Made by a program: the position numbers and the translations under genes. The notes below the pieces were generated by a model. It was not told the DNA's origin. It was given only the letters and a program-made list of their open reading frames with translations, and made no database searches. Of a DNA stretch of 64,000 nt, positions 24,034 through 32,540 are shown piece by piece (the stretch's first letter is position 1; every line of letters begins with the position of its first letter). The stretch comes from Humidesulfovibrio mexicanus (GTDB lineage: Bacteria > Desulfobacterota > Desulfovibrionia > Desulfovibrionales > Desulfovibrionaceae): contig NZ_FZOC01000009.1 of NCBI RefSeq assembly GCF_900188225.1, positions 1 through 64,000 of the forward strand. Reading direction: 5' to 3'.

Positions 24034-24068
24034 AAAAGCCGGGAGGCCAACCTCCCGGCTTTTCTTCT
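24034..24068. terminator. Terminator after feoB
   Basis: AAAAGCCGGGAGG, CCAA loop, CCTCCCGGCTTTT, then CTTCT. A 13-bp stem with A and T runs on both sides, so it may also end the converging CsgG-like gene. Confidence 0.9.
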
Positions 24069-24085
24069 GTGCCCTCCTGGCTTGG

Positions 24086-25327
24086 CTAGCAGCCGTGCCT
24101 GCGGATCACCGGCGGCGGCGTGTAGGTGGGCGTGGCCGGAGTGACCACCGGGTGCGTGGTGCTGGTGGGCAGCACGCCCTGGGCCGCGCTGGCGGCCTCG
24201 ATGCGCTGGCCCACCACATCGCCCGAGGACTGCTGGCCGATTGTGATGGTCACGCCCACGGGAACATGGTCCCTGGCCAGGCGCGCCAGCATGAAACTGG
24301 AGTCGAGCTTCGCCGCGCGGGCGAAATGCTCCTGGGCCGCAAGCCAGTCCTGCTTGTCCAGCGCGTCGAGCCCTTGGCCGTAGGCCACGGTGGCCTCGAA
24401 GCTCCGCGTGTGGTAGCTGCGCAACAGCGTCCGTCCCTGCTCCGGGTCGAGCTGGATTTTGTTCACCTCGACGATGCGCGCAAGAACCTGCTTTTGCAGC
24501 TCGAAAAACTTTTCCTTGGCCTCGCTCAGCCCGAAGGAGCCGACCACATCGCCCTGCCTGGTGGAGGCCACGCTGCTGGCCAAGCCCAGCTTGCCCGAAG
24601 CATCGTTCATGCTGCCAACCACCAGCCGTTCCGCGCCGAGCATCCGGCCCGCCCTGGGGGCAGTGGCCGGATCCACAGCGCCTGTTGCGCCGAGGGCCAG
24701 CTCGTCCAGCAGGGCCTGCATCCGCGCGCGCTCCACCACGCTTATGCCCTTGATCTGCGCCAGGTCCGAGATGGTCATGGCGGTGAGCGCCTTCTGCAGG
24801 GGCACCAGTTCCTGCCCGCTGCCCGCTATGGCGAAGTTGAACACGGCGTAGGAGTTGTCCTTGGCGGCCGCAAGGGACCGCTGGCCCTCCGCGGCCAGGG
24901 CCTTGCGGGCCAGCTTCTTGCTCTGCTCTATTTCCACCAGGGTGATGAGGCGGCCCACCTCCTGCGCCACCAGCGGCTTGCCGGGGTCGTTGAAGGCGCG
25001 CCAGGCCGCAAGCGCCTTGTCCTGCTGGTCAAGCTTCACGTAAGCCCAGCCCAGGTACACGTGGCACATGCTGGCCTTGGGCTCCTGGGCCAGGGCGCGC
25101 TCCAGCTCGGGGATGGCGCGCGCGGCGTCGCCGCTTTTGAGGTAGGCGTAGCCCAGCAGCTCGCGTGCCTGCCAGTTGGCGGGATCCGCGGCCGCCTGGG
25201 CCTGGAAGTCGGCGATGGCCTCGGCGTAGTTTCCGGCGCGCAGGGCGCTGGTGCCCTTCATGGCGGCGTTGCACCCGGCCAACACGGCCGCGCAACACAA
25301 CAGCGATACGGCGAAACGGGTCTTCAT
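24086..25327 (-). CDS. TPR and CsgG-domain lipoprotein
   Basis: A 413-residue lipoprotein with lipobox VLAGC at residues 15-19. Residues about 25-130 hold TPR-like repeats (AGNYAEAIADFQAQAAADP; SGDAARAIPELERALAQEP). Residues about 155-300 resemble the CsgG/FlgO domain: VFNFAIAGSG, IKGISVVERARMQALLDELA, and AGRMLGAERLVVGSMND. CsgG forms the outer-membrane pore for curli subunits, but TPR-fused relatives are little studied. A further TPR follows (QDWLAAQEHFARAAKLDSS). GGGAGG precedes the start. It is last in a minus-strand group with the repeat protein and the HfaB-like lipoprotein. Confidence 0.82.
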   Translation of the reverse strand: MKTRFAVSLLCCAAVLAGCNAAMKGTSALRAGNYAEAIADFQAQAAADPANWQARELLGYAYLKSGDAARAIPELERALAQEPKASMCHVYLGWAYVKLDQQDKALAAWRAFNDPGKPLVAQEVGRLITLVEIEQSKKLARKALAAEGQRSLAAAKDNSYAVFNFAIAGSGQELVPLQKALTAMTISDLAQIKGISVVERARMQALLDELALGATGAVDPATAPRAGRMLGAERLVVGSMNDASGKLGLASSVASTRQGDVVGSFGLSEAKEKFFELQKQVLARIVEVNKIQLDPEQGRTLLRSYHTRSFEATVAYGQGLDALDKQDWLAAQEHFARAAKLDSSFMLARLARDHVPVGVTITIGQQSSGDVVGQRIEAASAAQGVLPTSTTHPVVTPATPTYTPPPVIRRHGC

Positions 25328-25442
25328 GCGCGCCTCCCTGCCCGAATGCGGGCATCGGCCGTTGCCCCTGGCGGGCGAACGCGGGTCGTTCGCGGAAGGA
25401 GACGGCCCGGTTTGTGGCCGCCCCCTCCCGCCATGACATGTC

Positions 25443-25736
25443 CTACTTGCCGCCGACCTTGACGCTGCCGACGTTGGTCTCGCTCTTGACGTTGTGGCCG
25501 TAGCCCACGTTGGTGACGCTGCCGGCCTTGCCCTTGATGGTGATGTCGCCGGTCTTGGCGCCGTCCTTCACATCAACGGAATGCACGTTGGTCTTGGCCT
25601 CCACGTTCTGGCCGGAGGCCACGTTGGTCACGTTGCCCACCTTGCTGTCCACGGTGATGTCGCCGGTCTTGGCGGCGGCGAAAGCCAGCGCGGTGCTGGC
25701 CAGCACGATGATCATGCTCAGTGCGAACTTCTTCAT
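25443..25736 (-). CDS. Small exported two-repeat protein (candidate fibre subunit)
   Basis: A 97-residue protein: signal peptide at 1-20 (LASTALAFA), then two repeats of about 37 residues. Repeat 1 starts KTGDITVDSKVGNVTNV and repeat 2 KTGDITIKGKAGSVTNV; both continue with G-x-N-V and end in TNVxSV. There is no cysteine or tryptophan. Alternating Val/Ile/Thr with Gly/Asn turns suggests stacked beta strands, like the Asn/Gln ladders of curlins, though no curlin motif is exact. It shares its repeat with the protein at 28109-28456. AGGAGGAG precedes the start, so it should be well translated. It sits between two CsgG/HfaB-type lipoprotein genes. Confidence 0.8.
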   Translation of the reverse strand: MKKFALSMIIVLASTALAFAAAKTGDITVDSKVGNVTNVASGQNVEAKTNVHSVDVKDGAKTGDITIKGKAGSVTNVGYGHNVKSETNVGSVKVGGK

Positions 25737-25823
25737 GGTCTCCTCCTGAATTTGCGGGTTCGATGGCCTTCTCTTCCGTATGCGCAAGGGGGAGGGGGTT
25801 CCCCCGCGGGGGGCGTTCGCCGC

Positions 25824-27473
25824 TTACTTGGCCTTGGTGGTTATCAGCACGCTCTGCTCCACCACCTCGGCGGAGGCGCCGGGGGCCTGCTGGGGCTTCA
25901 TGGGCGGAGCGGCCTCCCTGGCCTCCGTGGGCACGGGCGGGGCCGCTGGCTTGGCCTCGCTGATCTTGATGCCTCGGCTCAAGCCCTTGAGGGCCTGCGC
26001 GCCGCCCTCGACGCTGAGCATCCCGGTTTCGCCCAGGGAGCGGGTCTTGACCGCTGGCAGGCGCGACTCGCTGGCGTACAGGACGATGCGCTCCGCGCCG
26101 TAGGGCGGGGCCACGTCCAGGGAGAAGCCGTCGGAGTCCTCGGGCACGGTGTAGCTGCGCCCGCCCTTGAAGAAGTCCAGGCTGCGGTGCCCGTTGGGCA
26201 GAAGCTGCACGGTCTGGCCGTCTGCGGTGACGTAGACGATCTTGCCGTAGAAATCCTTGTTGCCGGAAAGGGTGATGCGGATCTTTTCGCCCTGCTTGTA
26301 CACGGCCTTGTCGGTCTTGATCTGCACCGAGAGGGGCACGCCGGGCTGGGTGGACTGGGCCGGGGCGCGGCTGACCAGGGCCGGTCCGGCCGTAGCCTGG
26401 GCGGCGACGGCCCCGCTTCCGGCCACGCGGCTCTTCTCGCCCAGCACGGGGGCGTTCAGGAACAGATTCTCATAAAAATCCTCGTCCAGGCTGGCGGCCG
26501 GGAAACCGTAGGCCGCGCTCACGGCCTGGATGGCCGCGCCGGTCTCCGCATCGAGGGTTCCGGTGCTGCGCAGGCTGCGGTAGCCGTACACGTACAGCAG
26601 GTTCTGGATCATGCGCACGCGGCCCTGCTGGTCGGCCAGGGCGAACTGTTCGCGGACGTTCTCCATCACCACGGGGTCGGGCTTGGCGCCCTGGTCCACA
26701 CACTTCCAATAGGGCAGGTTCAGGTACTTGCCCAAGGTCTCCAGCACGGAGAGGTCCACCAGCACGCGCACGGCGGCGTGGCGGCCCTGGATCTTCTTGA
26801 CGCTGCTCTTGTAGCCGAAGGTGGCCCCGAAGATGGAGAAGCCGATGTCCAGGTCGCTGGCGGCCTTGAACACGCGCATGGTGTTCACGGCCTGCACGCG
26901 CGGCACCATGACCATGGTCTCAACGTCCGTGACGTTCAGGTCGATGGTGATGCTGGACACGGAATCGCGGTCCTGCTTGCCGAAATCCACGCCCGGCGAG
27001 TTCTTTCCCGCGCCGAACTGGCCGCCGAAATCCAGCCCGGAGCTGCCGGACTCCAGCGCCCGGTCGAACTCGGTGATGCCGCCGTTCAGCACCACGTCGG
27101 GCTTCACCTTGCCCTCCAGCGTGGTCATGTTCAGCGCGGCCTGGTTCTTGATGTAGATGGGGTCGTAGGGGATGAACACGATGCTGCCGCCGATGCTGTT
27201 GATGGCGCTCATGATCATCTTGGTGATGTCGAAGGGGATTTCCGCGCCGCTGGCCTGGGAGGAGCCGGTCTCGTCCTGCACCTGGGTGGTCTGCACGCGC
27301 AGGGTGCCCACGCGGAACTCGCGCGTCAGGCGGCCGAAGCGCTTGAGCGCACCGGTGTAGGTGGTCTCCTGGGCCTTGGGCGGCTCCACCGGGAGGGTGG
27401 GCGAGGGCTGTTTGCACGAAACCAGGAGCAATGCCATGGCCAAAATGGCCGCGATGCTGGCGCGGGTGTTCAT
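25824..27473 (-). CDS. HfaB/CsgG-like lipoprotein with DUF4384-like domain
   Basis: A 549-residue lipoprotein with lipobox LLVSC. Residues about 30-255 resemble the CsgG/HfaB family: FDITKMIMSAINSIGGSIVF, PDVVLNGGITEFDRALES and VRVLVDLSVLETLGKYLNLP. HfaB anchors the Caulobacter holdfast. Residues about 270-335 look like a peptidoglycan-binding helix bundle (RVRMIQNLLYVYGYRSLRST). Residues about 375-475 fit a DUF4384-like domain (KTDKAVYKQGEKIRITLSGN), which occurs with CsgG and caspase-like proteins. A Pro/Ala tail follows. AAGGAG precedes the start. It is upstream of the two-repeat protein and the TPR-CsgG gene. Confidence 0.8.
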   Translation of the reverse strand: MNTRASIAAILAMALLLVSCKQPSPTLPVEPPKAQETTYTGALKRFGRLTREFRVGTLRVQTTQVQDETGSSQASGAEIPFDITKMIMSAINSIGGSIVFIPYDPIYIKNQAALNMTTLEGKVKPDVVLNGGITEFDRALESGSSGLDFGGQFGAGKNSPGVDFGKQDRDSVSSITIDLNVTDVETMVMVPRVQAVNTMRVFKAASDLDIGFSIFGATFGYKSSVKKIQGRHAAVRVLVDLSVLETLGKYLNLPYWKCVDQGAKPDPVVMENVREQFALADQQGRVRMIQNLLYVYGYRSLRSTGTLDAETGAAIQAVSAAYGFPAASLDEDFYENLFLNAPVLGEKSRVAGSGAVAAQATAGPALVSRAPAQSTQPGVPLSVQIKTDKAVYKQGEKIRITLSGNKDFYGKIVYVTADGQTVQLLPNGHRSLDFFKGGRSYTVPEDSDGFSLDVAPPYGAERIVLYASESRLPAVKTRSLGETGMLSVEGGAQALKGLSRGIKISEAKPAAPPVPTEAREAAPPMKPQQAPGASAEVVEQSVLITTKAK

Positions 27474-27514
27474 GGAGCGTCTCCTTGGGCTTGGCCCGCC
27501 GGGCCTGCTCCCGG

Positions 27515-27832
27515 CTACTTTCCCTTGATGATGTTCTTGTCGCCCTTGCCTTCGTCGATGATGACGATGTCGCCGTAGACGTTGCCGCCCACGACCGCGC
27601 TGTTGACGTTGGTGTCGCCGGATCCGGCCTCGATGGCGCCGCCCTGCTGGCGCTTGGCCAGAGACTTGGCCTTGACCTTCTCGTACTTGACGTTGGTGCC
27701 CTTCTTGAGGGTGTTGTCGAACTCGAAGCCGTCGTCGTTGTCGATCTTGTCGTCCATGTCCTTGGCGAGGGCCGGGCCTCCGGCGGCAAGCGCCAGGCTC
27801 ATGCCCAGGATGACCGCTGCAAGACGCTTCAT
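27515..27832 (-). CDS. Small exported protein, acidic N-half, Gly/Asn-rich C-half
   Basis: A 105-residue protein of unknown family. The signal peptide is at 1-23 (LALAAGGPALA), then an acidic stretch (KDMDDKIDNDDGFEFDN), a basic middle, and a C-terminal part of alternating hydrophobic residues and Gly/Asn (GDTNVNSAVVGGNVYGDIVI) ending KGDKNIIKGK. That last part resembles the repeat proteins of this cluster in style, but I see no clear full repeat. GGGGGAGG precedes the start. It is the first gene of the minus-strand group. Confidence 0.7.
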   Translation of the reverse strand: MKRLAAVILGMSLALAAGGPALAKDMDDKIDNDDGFEFDNTLKKGTNVKYEKVKAKSLAKRQQGGAIEAGSGDTNVNSAVVGGNVYGDIVIIDEGKGDKNIIKGK

Positions 27833-27907
27833 GGCCGCCTCCCCCGGACGCCGCACCCGCCGACGCTGCCTTGCGCCGGGGCTGGACGCCCGTCCGTTAC
27901 GTGTATC

Positions 27908-27962
27908 GCTGGAAGCTATTCCAGCATACCATGTACGTATAATGACGCAACACTGTTGTCAA
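27908..27962 (-). promoter_or_regulatory. Predicted promoter and operator of the CsgG-like cluster
   Basis: On the minus strand TTGACA (27957-27962) is followed after 15 bases by TATACG (27936-27941). Downstream, near the expected transcript start, lies a 7-bp dyad GCTGGAA-GCTA-TTCCAGC (27908-27925). A second dyad CAACACTGTTG overlaps the -35. On the plus strand a TATAAT occurs at 27938-27943, but without a good -35. The 276-base gap (27833-28108) separates the two divergent arms of the cluster and is clearly richer in A/T than the genes. Confidence 0.45.
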
Positions 27963-28079
27963 GGCGAGCACACGAAACAACACGCAGGAAGAAGCTGGCC
28001 GTGGGGCATTGCAACGCTTTCCGGCGCGTGCTAGCATTTGTCATTACCTTGTGCCCCCCAGCCGTCCGTGCAGGAGACC

Positions 28080-28096
28080 CTCAAACAACGTTTGAG
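28080..28096 (+). promoter_or_regulatory. Stem-loop just before a ribosome-binding site
   Basis: CTCAAAC-AAC-GTTTGAG is a 7-bp stem with a 3-base loop, immediately before the AGGAGGA ribosome site of the repeat-protein gene at 28109. It could stabilise the transcript or modulate translation. Confidence 0.45.
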
Positions 28097-28108
28097 AGGA
28101 GGAACGCC

Positions 28109-28456
28109 ATGAACGCCTTGCCCGTCCACAAGCCGGATGCTGCAGGGAACTGGACACAGTTTCACATGCTTTTCCTTTGCCTGGCCGCAGCTCTTGCCCT
28201 CCCGGCGGCGGGGCTGGCCGCCCAGGTGCACGAATCCGACCTCGCGGTCTCCAGCAAGGTGGGCAAGGTGTCCACCCAGGCCGAGGGCCGGAACGCCGAA
28301 GCGCGCTCCGTGGTCCACTCCGTGACCATCCACCCCGATGCCCGCACCGGCGACGTGCGGGTGAGCGGAGCCGTGGACAAGGTCCATTCCCAGTCCGTGG
28401 GCCAGAACACCAGCGCCGACAGCGCCGTGGGCGGGGTGAACGTGGGCGGCAAGTAA
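28109..28456 (+). CDS. Small exported two-repeat protein, second copy
   Basis: A 115-residue protein whose N-terminus carries a somewhat long signal peptide (MLFLCLAAALALPAAGLA, after about 23 residues). The mature part holds two repeats of about 37 residues in register with the protein at 25443-25736: HESDLAVSSKVGKVSTQ and RTGDVRVSGAVDKVHSQ, each followed by G-x-N and a final V-G/H-x-V; both proteins end in VGGK. The repeat is more diverged here (Ser, Gln and Ala replace Thr and Asn). AGGAGGA precedes the ATG. An in-frame ATG inside the leader (at the MLFLC position) would give a standard-length signal peptide, so the start is not certain. Confidence 0.75.
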   Translation: MNALPVHKPDAAGNWTQFHMLFLCLAAALALPAAGLAAQVHESDLAVSSKVGKVSTQAEGRNAEARSVVHSVTIHPDARTGDVRVSGAVDKVHSQSVGQNTSADSAVGGVNVGGK

Positions 28457-28460
28457 AGCC

Positions 28461-28760
28461 CTACCGTCCCTTGACCGTGGCCACGGCCTCGCCGGGCGCG
28501 CGTCCCGGCGCCACGCGGCCCTGGTAGATGATCTGGGAGTCCGGCCCCTCGGCGGCGTCCTTGCGGCCGCGTTCGCGCCAAAGCCACACGTGGCCGTCCT
28601 TGGTGTCCACGATGAGCACCTTGGGCGGAAACAGATTGTTGTCGCCGCTCTGCACCACCACGGGCTTGTAGCGGATGATCTCCTCCGCCAGGGCGGTGGC
28701 GCGGCACAGCGGCAGGGAGAGGATGACCAGAAGAAACGGAAGGGCGATGCGCCTGGGCAT
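28461..28760 (-). CDS. Small exported protein of unknown function
   Basis: A 99-residue protein with a signal peptide (IALPFLLVILSLPLCRATALA) and a mature part containing EIIRYKPVVVQSGDNNLFPP, KVLIVDTKDGHVWLWRE and a basic tail. I do not recognise the family; the KDGHVWLW element recurs in small periplasmic proteins. GAGGAGG precedes the start. It converges with the two-repeat gene, stops only 4 bases away. Confidence 0.65.
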   Translation of the reverse strand: MPRRIALPFLLVILSLPLCRATALAEEIIRYKPVVVQSGDNNLFPPKVLIVDTKDGHVWLWRERGRKDAAEGPDSQIIYQGRVAPGRAPGEAVATVKGR

Positions 28761-28862
28761 GGGGCCTCCTCGTCTGCGGTGAAGATGCGCGGGACGTTCG
28801 GGGGGCTTGGACACAGCATATCCCGAAACGCGCCGTGCGGGCAAGGGGTTTGCTTTCCCGCC

Positions 28863-28891
28863 TTGATAATCGACGCGTGTTCGTGCATACG
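28863..28891 (+). promoter_or_regulatory. Predicted promoter
   Basis: TTGATA, a 17-base spacer and CATACG, about 40 bases before the 28934 gene, in a short A/T-richer stretch. Weak -10 match. Confidence 0.35.
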
Positions 28892-28933
28892 TAGGGTATC
28901 AACCCCCCGGTCCAGCAAGAGGAGGCCCCCGCC

Positions 28934-29350
28934 ATGCAGGCGCATCCGCACATGCCGTTGGCCGCTTCCGCAGCGGCCCTGCTTGCCCTGGCTCTGCTCT
29001 GCCTGCCTGCGGCCGCTCCGGGCGCCGGCCGCATGGACACGCCCTCGGAGGAGGAACTCATCGCGCGCGGCTTCCGCTTCGTCACGGAGAAGCCCGCCGA
29101 CAAATTCCACGAGATCCCCGGCGACGACACCGTCATCCGCGTGTACAAGAAGGGCCAGGAGACCGTGGGGCTCTATATCCTGCGCAACGGGCGCATCTAC
29201 GGCTACGCGGTGAAGGTGGGCGGGCAGCCCATGGCCGCCTACATCGACGAGTACAACTCCGGCTATTGCGCAAAAGACGTGAGCGCGGGCGAAAACTTCA
29301 TGATCGATCTGCGCGCCTATGGCATGGACCGGGCCAGCCGCCGCAAATAG
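28934..29350 (+). CDS. Exported protein of unknown function upstream of CsgG-like gene
   Basis: A 138-residue protein. The signal peptide is residues 1-30 (ALLALALLCLPAAAPGAG). The mature region is a small globular domain (EELIARGFRFVTEKPADKFH; VGLYILRNGRIYGYAVKVGG; YIDEYNSGYCAKD) with one cysteine. I recognise no family. GAGGAGG lies before the ATG. It is 24 bases before the CsgG-like gene and so probably co-transcribed with it. Confidence 0.7.
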   Translation: MQAHPHMPLAASAAALLALALLCLPAAAPGAGRMDTPSEEELIARGFRFVTEKPADKFHEIPGDDTVIRVYKKGQETVGLYILRNGRIYGYAVKVGGQPMAAYIDEYNSGYCAKDVSAGENFMIDLRAYGMDRASRRK

Positions 29351-29374
29351 CACCGCACACAGGAGGTTTTTTTC

Positions 29375-30049
29375 ATGCGCATCCGACTCCGCGCCCAGGC
29401 CATGGCCCTGGCTCTTGTCCTGGCCCTGTGCGGCCTGGCCCGCGCCCAGGCCCCCACCACCCTGGCCGTGCTGCCCTTCGAGAACAACGCCGTCACCGAT
29501 GCGAAGATGTACGAGCCCCTCGCCCAGGGGCTGGCCGCCATGCTCATCACGGACCTCAAGATGGCCGGAACGAGCCTCAAGGTCATCGAGCGGGCGCAGA
29601 TCGCCGCCATCCTGAAGGAGGTGGCCTTGAGCCAGAGCGGCATGGTGGACGCGGCCACGGCGGTGCAGGCCGGGCGGCTCCTGGGCGCGCAGAGCATCGC
29701 CTTCGGCGCGTTCATGGTCCTGGGCGACGACGTGCGCATGGACGCCCGCATCATCAACGTGGAGACCAGCGAGTGCATCATGGCCGCCTCCATCACCGGC
29801 GGCAAGAAGGACTTCATGAAGCTGGAGCGCCAGTTGGCGGAGAAGATCGCCGCCGCCCTCAAGGTGAGCCTGTCGCAGATTCCGCCCGCGGCCAGCGGCA
29901 TGGACGCGGCGCTTCTGTACTCCCGCGGGCTGGAGGCCCTGGACAAGGGCGACCGCGCCGGGGCCGAGAAGCTCTTCGCCGAGACCGTGGCCGCCGACCC
30001 GGCCTACAAGCGGCAGGTGGAGGGCATCATGGCCGCGTTGAACCAGTAG
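29375..30049 (+). CDS. CsgG-domain exported protein
   Basis: A 224-residue protein with a signal peptide (ALALVLALCGLARAQA) lacking a proper lipobox, so it should be periplasmic or outer-membrane associated rather than lipidated as CsgG is. The CsgG domain is clear: TLAVLPFENNAVTD, GTSLKVIERAQIAAILKEVA, VQAGRLLGAQSIAFGAFMV and ARIINVETSECIMAASITGG. A single TPR-like stretch (GDRAGAEKLFAETVAADP) ends it. AGGAGG precedes the start, and a terminator follows. Confidence 0.85.
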   Translation: MRIRLRAQAMALALVLALCGLARAQAPTTLAVLPFENNAVTDAKMYEPLAQGLAAMLITDLKMAGTSLKVIERAQIAAILKEVALSQSGMVDAATAVQAGRLLGAQSIAFGAFMVLGDDVRMDARIINVETSECIMAASITGGKKDFMKLERQLAEKIAAALKVSLSQIPPAASGMDAALLYSRGLEALDKGDRAGAEKLFAETVAADPAYKRQVEGIMAALNQ

Positions 30050-30067
30050 CCCGGCCCTGACGCGAAA

Positions 30068-30106
30068 GCCCCGGCAGGACGAACGTCCCGCCGGGGCCTT
30101 TTGTTT
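30068..30106. terminator. Terminator between CsgG-like and metacaspase genes
   Basis: GCCCCGGCAGGAC, GAAC loop, GTCCCGCCGGGGC with one mismatch, then CTTTTGTTTT. It ends the plus-strand gene and lies just before the converging minus-strand gene. Confidence 0.88.
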
Positions 30107-30127
30107 TGCCCCCGACTCCGCGCCCGG

Positions 30128-31852
30128 CTACCGGATGCGCACGTCCACCTGCCCGGCCGCAAAATCCTGCACCACGATGCGCCGCTTGCCGGAAAGGGGC
30201 GTGTTGTCCACGGCCACGGCCAGGTCCTCGCCCGTGCCGCCGTAGCGCACGTCCAGCACCAGCAGGCCGCTCTGCTTGTTCCAGCGGTCCGTGGCCACCT
30301 CGTTCACGCTGGAGGTCTTTTGCAGGGCGGACAAAAGCGACGCGTAGGCCGACATGTCGCCCACGCCGGTGGCGAAGAGGCGTATCTGCCCGCCCTCGGC
30401 CGCGTCCTTCATGGCCAGGCTGGTCAACGTGGGGGCCACGTAGCCGTCTATGGTCGCGCGGGAGGCCTGGGCCAGGGCCTTCTGCGCGCCGTTGAGCGCG
30501 CTTACGTGCGCTGCGGCCGCGCTCTGCACCGTGGAGCCCAGCACCTGCCCATTCTGGGCGCTGACGATCTTGAGCTGGATGTTGGTTTGAATGGAGCGCA
30601 GGTTGGTTCCAGGCATAACCTCGCCCGCATCCTGTATGGCGGCCTTTCCCACCAGCACGTACCGCGCGCCGAACATGGCCCCGAGCTGCTTGGCCGCGTC
30701 GGCGTCGCCGGAAAGGGCCAGCCGCACCTGCCCCTTCTGGTTGGCGGCCTCAAGCTGGGCCTTGTCGATGAGCGGGTAGCCCAGGGCGGAGAGCCGGGCC
30801 AAAAGCTCGTTCTCGGCCATGCTCATGCCCTTTACCGGACAGTTCACGCAGTCCTCCTGCACCAGCAGCATGAGCTTGGGCGGCTTGGCTTGTCGCTGGG
30901 CCGCGGGCCGGGCAGGGGCAGGGGCAGGGCTTACCGCCGGGTCCGGGGCGGGCCTGGAAGCCGCCGCCTGGGCCTGCTGCTGGCCGCGCTCTATCTGCCG
31001 CTTGAGCTCCGCGATCTCCGCGCGCTCCTTCTCTATCCTGGCCCATTCCTCGGCCGCGGCCTTGTCCATGGCTCCGCCCGCGGTCTCGCCCCCGCCCCTG
31101 AAAAAGAAATCACCGGTGAGGGACGAGGACTGCCAGGGCACCTGCCGCTTGCTGGTCTCGCGCATGACGGACACGCGCACCTTCTTGAGCACCTTGTCCA
31201 CCTCCAGATTCGGGGTGGGCATGTACTCCAGCATGTACTTGGTGAACACGCCGTTCCTGCCCTCTCCGTCGGCGGCGGTGTCGCCCGGGGCGGTGGCGTA
31301 GGCGATGAAGGTGCCCGTGGGCGCGTCCATGCGCGCAAGCCCCTTGGAGGACGAGCGGTAGCTGCGGGCAAAGGGGTTGTCGCGGCAGGCGTCCAAAATG
31401 ACGATATTGAGCGGGTTGCCCGCGTTGTGCATGGCGTCCAGCACGCGCCCGGCATCCACGGACTCGTACTTGATGTCGCTTTCCTGGCTGATCTTGGCCC
31501 CGATGGGGATGAGGTAGTTGACGCCGCCCACCTGCATTCCGTGCCCGGCGAAGAAGAAGAGTCCCATGGATTCCTTGTTCAGCTTGCCCTGGAACTCGCG
31601 GATGGCGTCCTCCATCTGCTTCTGGTTGGCGTTCAGCCGCGAGATGACCTCGAAGCCCAGATTCTTGAGCATGGAGCCCATGTCCGTGGCGTCGTTGACC
31701 GGATTCTTCAGCGGCGAGGACTCGTAGGCGGAGTTTCCGATGACCAGCGCCAGGCGCTTCTGGGTGTCGGCCAGGGCCGGGGCGGCGGCCAGCAGGGCCA
31801 GGCCGGTCAGGACACCAGCCAGGACGAGGGCCAAAGGTGGGCGGATGCGCAT
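30128..31852 (-). CDS. Exported metacaspase-like (C14) protein with CsgG/FlgO-like C-terminus
   Basis: A 574-residue protein with a signal peptide (residues 1-28). The caspase-like domain (about 32-270) begins KRLALVIGNSAY, with the catalytic histidine H104 in FFFAGHGMQ and cysteine C156 in VILDACRDNP. An acidic substrate pocket for basic residues would make it metacaspase- rather than caspase-like. A Lys/Glu/Gln coiled-coil and Pro/Ala linker follow, then a second domain (about 350-500) with ALGYPLIDKAQLEAANQ and LGAMFGARYVLVGKAAI resembling CsgG/FlgO proteins. AAGGAGG precedes the start. It is in the same neighbourhood as the CsgG-like genes. Confidence 0.85.
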   Translation of the reverse strand: MRIRPPLALVLAGVLTGLALLAAAPALADTQKRLALVIGNSAYESSPLKNPVNDATDMGSMLKNLGFEVISRLNANQKQMEDAIREFQGKLNKESMGLFFFAGHGMQVGGVNYLIPIGAKISQESDIKYESVDAGRVLDAMHNAGNPLNIVILDACRDNPFARSYRSSSKGLARMDAPTGTFIAYATAPGDTAADGEGRNGVFTKYMLEYMPTPNLEVDKVLKKVRVSVMRETSKRQVPWQSSSLTGDFFFRGGGETAGGAMDKAAAEEWARIEKERAEIAELKRQIERGQQQAQAAASRPAPDPAVSPAPAPARPAAQRQAKPPKLMLLVQEDCVNCPVKGMSMAENELLARLSALGYPLIDKAQLEAANQKGQVRLALSGDADAAKQLGAMFGARYVLVGKAAIQDAGEVMPGTNLRSIQTNIQLKIVSAQNGQVLGSTVQSAAAAHVSALNGAQKALAQASRATIDGYVAPTLTSLAMKDAAEGGQIRLFATGVGDMSAYASLLSALQKTSSVNEVATDRWNKQSGLLVLDVRYGGTGEDLAVAVDNTPLSGKRRIVVQDFAAGQVDVRIR

Positions 31853-31973
31853 GGGTTCCTCCTTGGCGGACTCAAGGGGGGGTGGATATGTATGCATCTA
31901 CCCAATGACGCGGAAAATGGCAACGCGCCCCAAGGGGCCGGGCGGGGCAACAGGGCGCGAGCGCACCCGGCGG

Positions 31974-32540
31974 CTACGTGCGGGTCAGCGCCTGGGCCCG
32001 GCGCTTGACACGCTCCGGGTACCAGGTGGTGAACAGCAGGCAGGAGAGCATCATGGAGTAGTTGAGCGCCTCGATCTGCCACTCCGGCCATGCCGTGCCC
32101 TGGCTTTTGAGCTAGGCCAGGCCCGCGCCCACGGTGAACACCGCCGCCCAGGTGGCGGTGAGCACGGTGTTGGTGCGCACAAAGGCCGGATGGCTCCAAC
32201 GCGAGGGATCGGTATGCTCCTTGGCGTACTCCAGGGTGAAGGGGCGGCCCAGGGCGAGCGTGGTCCAGGCGCCCACGGCCAGCGCGCCGTTGGCCAGCAC
32301 GCCCATGAAGCGCACGGTCCACATGTGCTCGAAGGCGAACACGGCCACGCAGGCGTAGCTGAAAAACACGATGCCCACCCACATGATGACGCCCTTGTGC
32401 AGCTTGAGCACGGCCATGACCAGGGTGAGCGCGGCGGCCACGGCCAGCCCCAGCTTGAGCCGGAACATGGAGCCGTGCGCGAGGAAGAGGAACGCGATCC
32501 ACGGCGCGAAGCCGAGCATGAGTTTGATGAACTGACGCAT
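31974..32540 (-). pseudogene. Integral membrane protein gene split by an in-frame amber codon
   Basis: An open frame from the ATG at 32540 gives 142 residues with four or more membrane helices (FIKLMLGFAPWIAFLFLA; LGLAVAAALTLVMAVL; VIMWVGIVFFSYACVAVF) and ends at a TAG at 32112-32114. The same frame then continues for 45 codons in protein-like style, through TAWPEWQIEALNYSMMLSCL and FTTWYPERVKRR, to a TAG at 31974-31976. The full product would be 188 residues. The tail adds the last helix and a basic C-terminus typical of such proteins. A single-base change, an amber-suppressed codon or a sequencing error could all explain it. I do not know the function. Confidence 0.75.

Follow-up and report, generated by a model that had tools for sequence, protein, structure and literature searches.

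An island of nine genes in Humidesulfovibrio mexicanus probably encodes a curli-like export system, in which repeat proteins are exported by a CsgG-type pore and build a surface fibre (probability roughly two in three). The island spans positions 24086–31852 of the window, the 64,000-nucleotide stretch of contig NZ_FZOC01000009.1 that was analysed, in a host genome of 3.52 Mb and 15 contigs. The core idea of an undescribed curli-like surface system was put forward in an initial annotation of the window, and is supported by the predicted CsgG fold of one protein, p3, and by the linkage of p3 to a repeat protein and a small partner, p4. No published description of such a system was found in a search that covered open-access literature, and the novelty of the system is therefore provisional.

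All nine genes proposed in that annotation were recovered at their positions and scored as coding by a codon-usage gene caller combined with ribosome-binding-site scoring. Four of them, p4, p3, p2 and p1, form a run on the minus strand with intergenic gaps of 41–115 bases. This run is ended, after p1 as its last gene, by a strong terminator-like hairpin at 24063–24034. Neither a sigma-70-like promoter nor an Rfam family was found in the region.

The central protein, p3 (25824–27473, minus strand), is an outer-membrane lipoprotein in which a predicted CsgG-fold pore is followed by a PG_binding_1-like segment and a DUF4384 domain. Its score against the CsgG family (Pfam PF03783) is 18.8 bits, just under the cut-off of 20.8, and in the same database its DUF4384 match reaches an E value of 3.7e-21, with the PG_binding_1 match below cut-off. 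The lipobox cysteine (Cys20) is invariant across 45 aligned homologues. Comparison with E. coli CsgG by hhalign gave 95% with a 10-sequence alignment and 70% with the 45-sequence alignment; the p3 profile matched no solved structure when searched by sequence. The AlphaFold2 (AF2) model of p3 (pLDDT 75.5) contains four long strands arranged as two transmembrane hairpins (127–152/161–183 and 188–214/217–227). When this model was compared with the PDB by Foldseek, the top 25 matches were all CsgG, the best with an E value of 3.3e-11. A second aligner gave a VIA Z of 16.4 to CsgG over residues 33–267, with the transmembrane hairpins included, a value higher than those for the soluble relatives FlgT, PelC and TolB in the PDB comparison. 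Thus, p3 is predicted from its model to have the full CsgG fold including both membrane hairpins, as the initial annotation had proposed should be checked, and it would form an oligomeric pore. The closest named p3 relative comes from Humidesulfovibrio (L054).

Three proteins had been assigned to the CsgG/HfaB family, and three PF03783 matches were indeed found genome-wide, all inside the island. Judged by sequence, p3 is the only pore-like protein among them. The TPR lipoprotein p1 (24086–25327, minus strand), in which TPRs are also found by Pfam, matches only positions 38–98 of the 210 in the CsgG profile, and the exported protein p8 (29375–30049, plus strand) matches only positions 6–97 of 210 (E 3.3e-11). 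Both appear to lack the segments that form the two membrane hairpins, and carry the soluble CsgG half only. A reading of the island with three pores was therefore dropped, since p1 and p8 cover merely the first half of the profile. No orthologue of p1 was found in the loci searched.

These neighbours bear on another role for p3, namely that of a structural or regulatory envelope lipoprotein, which would tether the wall together with the caspase and the soluble CsgG-like proteins while the repeat proteins stay periplasmic. The added PG-binding-like and DUF4384 domains of p3 are consistent with such a role, as is the company that p3 keeps: p1, p8, the caspase p9 and the OmpA-like genes of relatives all encode envelope proteins. 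However, the p3 model keeps long membrane hairpins that a soluble role does not need, and p3 is strongly linked to exported proteins that are highly repetitive and differ widely in length. The envelope role is accordingly rated as improbable, and export of the repeat proteins via p3 is taken as the best reading.

The linkage was established with the p3 alignment as query against 84,980 species genomes, which yielded 64 loci. This number is a lower bound because only candidates matching either of two short patterns were considered. The loci belong to Desulfobacterota, methanotrophic and other Gammaproteobacteria, Nitrospirota, Campylobacterota, Planctomycetota (Scalindua) and Elusimicrobiota, with one assigned to Myxococcota. 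Repeat protein, p4 and pore recur as a trio in at least seven phyla and occur together in most of the 64 loci, in line with the co-occurrence expected for the curli-like proposal. A p4 model built from Desulfovibrionaceae only found p4 at 19 loci of other groups (E < 1e-3), each time directly upstream of p3. A broader model placed p4 immediately ahead of p3 in 54 of the 60 loci with sufficient upstream sequence; this model was partly trained on the counted loci, and the 19 hits are the unbiased figure. Only one round of the p4 search was used, with repeat ORFs removed, because the iterated model drifted into the repeat proteins. Among 395 Desulfobacterota genomes, p3 was found in nine and p4 in six, and all six p4 genes adjoin p3; p4 thus never occurs there without the pore.

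In 51 of 59 loci, p3 is accompanied on its own strand by an ORF with an internal repeat of 33–42 residues, no more than 3 kb upstream or 0.6 kb downstream. Such repeats were found in 77 of 411 ORFs close to p3 and in 14 of 2176 distant ORFs, of which several are additional copies of the family. By a stricter model of the repeat unit, a repeat protein was recognised in 37 of the 64 loci. The p3 tree largely follows phylum, with nine label changes compared to 24.5 in shuffles. One relative is located on an Azospirillum plasmid, where it adjoins genes for a two-repeat protein, OmpA and an integrase; the annotation there reads only DUF4384 and hypothetical proteins.

In the window, the repeat protein is p2 (25443–25736, minus strand), an exported protein with two 38-residue repeats and a putative fibre subunit, which lies downstream of p3 in this genus. 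Its repeat units are identical at 22 of 38 residues, and its repeat score of 17.5 compares with a maximum of 8.6 among shuffles (0 of 5000 reach p2). A divergent paralogue, p5 (28109–28456, plus strand; 41% identity, E 5.7e-15), may be a second subunit. The internal repeat of p5 is weak, at a lag of 38 residues, and its score of 7.4 narrowly exceeds the shuffle maximum of 7.2 (n = 5000). This gene is conserved at the same place in loci L046 and L047 and is also present in L051. All five small proteins of the island had been proposed as repeat proteins and fibre subunits; repeats, and with them a putative subunit role, are seen in p2 and, narrowly, in p5, whereas p4 is non-repetitive and the other two are not repeat proteins.

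Related multi-repeat proteins beside p3 were matched by p2 in L039, L074, L089 and L063 (phmmer E about 1e-9 or better). Across loci the unit length is nearly constant at about 35–40 residues, and the number of units varies from two in the window to eight (L039, L068) and at least 25 (L084). A typical unit reads AKTGDITVDSKVGNVTNVASGQNVEAKTNVHSVDVKDG in p2 and SAVKGAVINQSNAQGAANIAIGQGNEANMGSTAISG in L068. Some loci encode two repeat proteins, one long and one short. A repeat-unit model built without Desulfovibrionaceae units misses p2 (E 4.3), and the link between p2 and the other repeat proteins runs via p2 itself in the phmmer search and via the eight-repeat protein of L039 as an intermediate. 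A 93% identical copy of p2 sits alone on another contig. Two genomes of the same genus that lack p3 (G029, G083) keep just a p2-like gene, whose first repeat is decayed, a pattern consistent with function being lost when the pore is absent.

The AF2 model of p2 shows a strand-arc-strand arrangement in each unit (27–43 and 46–56; 65–81 and 84–94) with moderate confidence (pLDDT 72; worst of the five models, pLDDT 41). In the structure check suggested at the outset, the repeat protein was thus modelled as stacked arches and not as an enzyme, at that moderate level of confidence. Foldseek found no significant match to the model in the PDB. Fibrils of FapC (ranked first, E 1.1), HET-s and HELLF took the top ranks and CsgA came eleventh, with E above 1 in every case; the highest VIA Z in the PDB was 4.4. 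AF2 may favour solenoids on tandem repeats in general, and the modelled stacked-arch fold of p2 is therefore regarded as plausible. The repeat proteins may form a fibre or an amyloid. Both repeat proteins of the window have two units each, which is few for a self-stacking fibre.

The third member of the trio, p4 (27515–27832, minus strand), is a small exported non-repetitive protein. In the alignment of its homologues, the mature N-terminus is consistently acidic and a single Asn is invariant. A C-terminal stretch of 22 residues is similar to a single arch of the repeat family (hhalign 63%, E 7e-5). No relation of p4 to CsgF (0.7%) or CsgE was detected by hhalign. These features suggest that p4 may act as a combined pore adaptor and nucleator.

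A mechanism can be proposed from these parts. The Sec pathway would carry p3, p4 and the repeat proteins p2 and p5 into the periplasm, from where the lipoprotein p3 would reach the outer membrane and oligomerise as a CsgG-type pore; its PG-binding-like and DUF4384 domains may tether the pore to the wall. By its conserved acidic N-terminus p4 would dock at p3, and its C-terminal arch could serve as both anchor and nucleator, so that a single protein would unite the roles of CsgF and CsgB. Passing unfolded through p3, the repeat proteins would then assemble into a surface fibre by stacking their arches on one another.

How does this system relate to curli? The two share a lipoprotein pore of CsgG fold (predicted for p3), a gene for a small Sec-exported partner directly upstream of the pore gene (p4, mirroring csgF-csgG), and tandem-repeat subunits with a variable number of repeats and conserved N and G positions. 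CsgA homologues, for example, reach 22 repeats (PMC3521004). The island differs in its repeat unit of 35–40 residues, compared to the 23 ± 5 residues on average of curlin units with their N/Q motif (PMC10192328), and in the extra PG-binding-like and DUF4384 domains of p3. As the initial annotation had stated for csgA, csgB, csgE and csgF, genome-wide searches gave no match to the curlin repeat (PF07012), CsgE (PF10627) or CsgF (PF10614), with the E. coli control positive in all. CsgE is also missing from some curli systems (PMC3521004). A profile of the repeat family showed no detectable relation to CsgA (hhalign 0.4%).

The nearest functional rival system is HfaABD of Caulobacter, in which a CsgG-like pore protein, HfaB, is thought to export small surface proteins, and the surface location of HfaA and HfaD depends on HfaB (PMC6707917). 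By analogy, the exported repeat proteins of the island would coat the surface and tether exopolysaccharide, and no long fibres would form. The short subunits of the window would suit this arrangement, and the best NCBIfam match of p3 is the HfaB equivalog (NF037935), a weak match at 19.5 bits against a cut-off of 300; the membership in the HfaB family suggested initially thus fails. The subunits of relatives, however, reach 25 repeats, no link to holdfast polysaccharide was seen here, and p2, p4 and p5 have no meaningful match in NCBIfam, which may lack models of HfaA and HfaD. A holdfast-anchor-like role is therefore considered unlikely.

The Fap system (fapABCDEF) likewise exports subunits with imperfect repeats, and FapC is the top-ranked, non-significant fold match of p2. 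Its pore FapF is a trimeric barrel, whereas p3 is predicted to have the CsgG fold; Fap thus uses another kind of pore (PMC12822426). In addition, the repeats of the island are contiguous and vary in number, and FapC has almost invariably three (PMC12822426). Given the absence of curlin, CsgE and CsgF matches, the lack of relation between the repeats and CsgA, the failed HfaB score and the different Fap pore, the system appears to work like curli yet is not curli by its subunits. The chances are evenly balanced that it represents a third class of functional amyloid beside curli and Fap, found in at least seven phyla and combining a CsgG-type pore with unrelated subunits of ~36-residue repeats and with p4 as adaptor and nucleator.

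Curli surveys seek the curlin motif together with CsgE and CsgF, and leave other CsgG hits aside. The 2012 survey, based on the X6QXGX2NX10 motif together with Csg models, counted 171 of 601 Pfam CsgG hits as curli (PMC3521004), and the present system may explain part of the hits left out of such counts. It also offers a defined and testable gene set for putative surface fibres in sulfate reducers, methanotrophs, Nitrospira and an anammox relative. Should the proposal be true, CsgG pores handle substrates that are unrelated to each other, and a comparison of the substrate sets could reveal what the pore recognises. CsgG is in use as a nanopore, which gives practical interest to a divergent family of such pores with a dedicated partner.

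The remaining genes appear to be accessory or associated. The small exported protein p6 (28461–28760, minus strand) has relatives in other Desulfovibrionaceae (phmmer) and contains the conserved motif RY...LDT..G, which occurs a single time near p3 in each of 29 loci, on the same strand as p3 in every one, with no match among 4296 reversed ORFs. Another small exported protein, p7 (28934–29350, plus strand), is conserved together with p8 only in the genus and in genome G020. The exported protein p9 (30128–31852, minus strand) had been described as a metacaspase/CsgG-like protein. The protease part of this description stands, p9 being a caspase-family member (PF00656, E 4e-40) with the His in AGHG and the Cys in DACR, but no CsgG match was found in it by Pfam, and its C-terminal part gave only a sub-threshold match to LpoB. 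Three methanotroph loci carry relatives of p9 (E about 1e-73) at a distance of 3–4 kb on the upstream side of p3.

The flanks of the island (window 24034-32000) were found to be unlike among the close relatives compared (L046, L047 and L040/L051), and in genome G020 the island genes are dispersed to separate places. Thus, the island seems to have been moved or rearranged.

Additional copies of the gene for p2, the exported protein of two 38-residue repeats, were also observed. The second p2 gene of G000 (G000:C3:233280-233570, corresponding to L048:7281-7574) is 93% identical and stands alone on a separate contig; G098 and G110 also carry comparable second copies. Orphan p2-like genes, each with a decayed first repeat, are present in two genomes of the window's genus that are without the pore (G029:C8:647630-647914 and G083:C27:25956-26240).

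The trio of repeat protein, small exported partner p4 and CsgG-fold pore p3 has an exported caspase-family protein nearby in the window genus (30128-31852) and in methanotrophs (L061:4059-5357, L062:3036-4337 and L066:3629-4930). Look-alike exported proteins, DUF4097-like as judged by eye, lie close to the system in a Desulfovibrionaceae genome (L051:3956-4771) and a methanotroph (L062:9512-10285). Downstream of the trio in one Desulfovibrio-type clade, L042 and L052 encode a vWA-domain protein (tested in L042) along with ABC-transporter-like genes, and the downstream genes of L043 and L044 are longer. FHA-domain genes are found near the system at L087:2780-4648 and in L118 (Azospirillum lipoferum plasmid AZO_p4), the latter also containing PP2C genes nearby.
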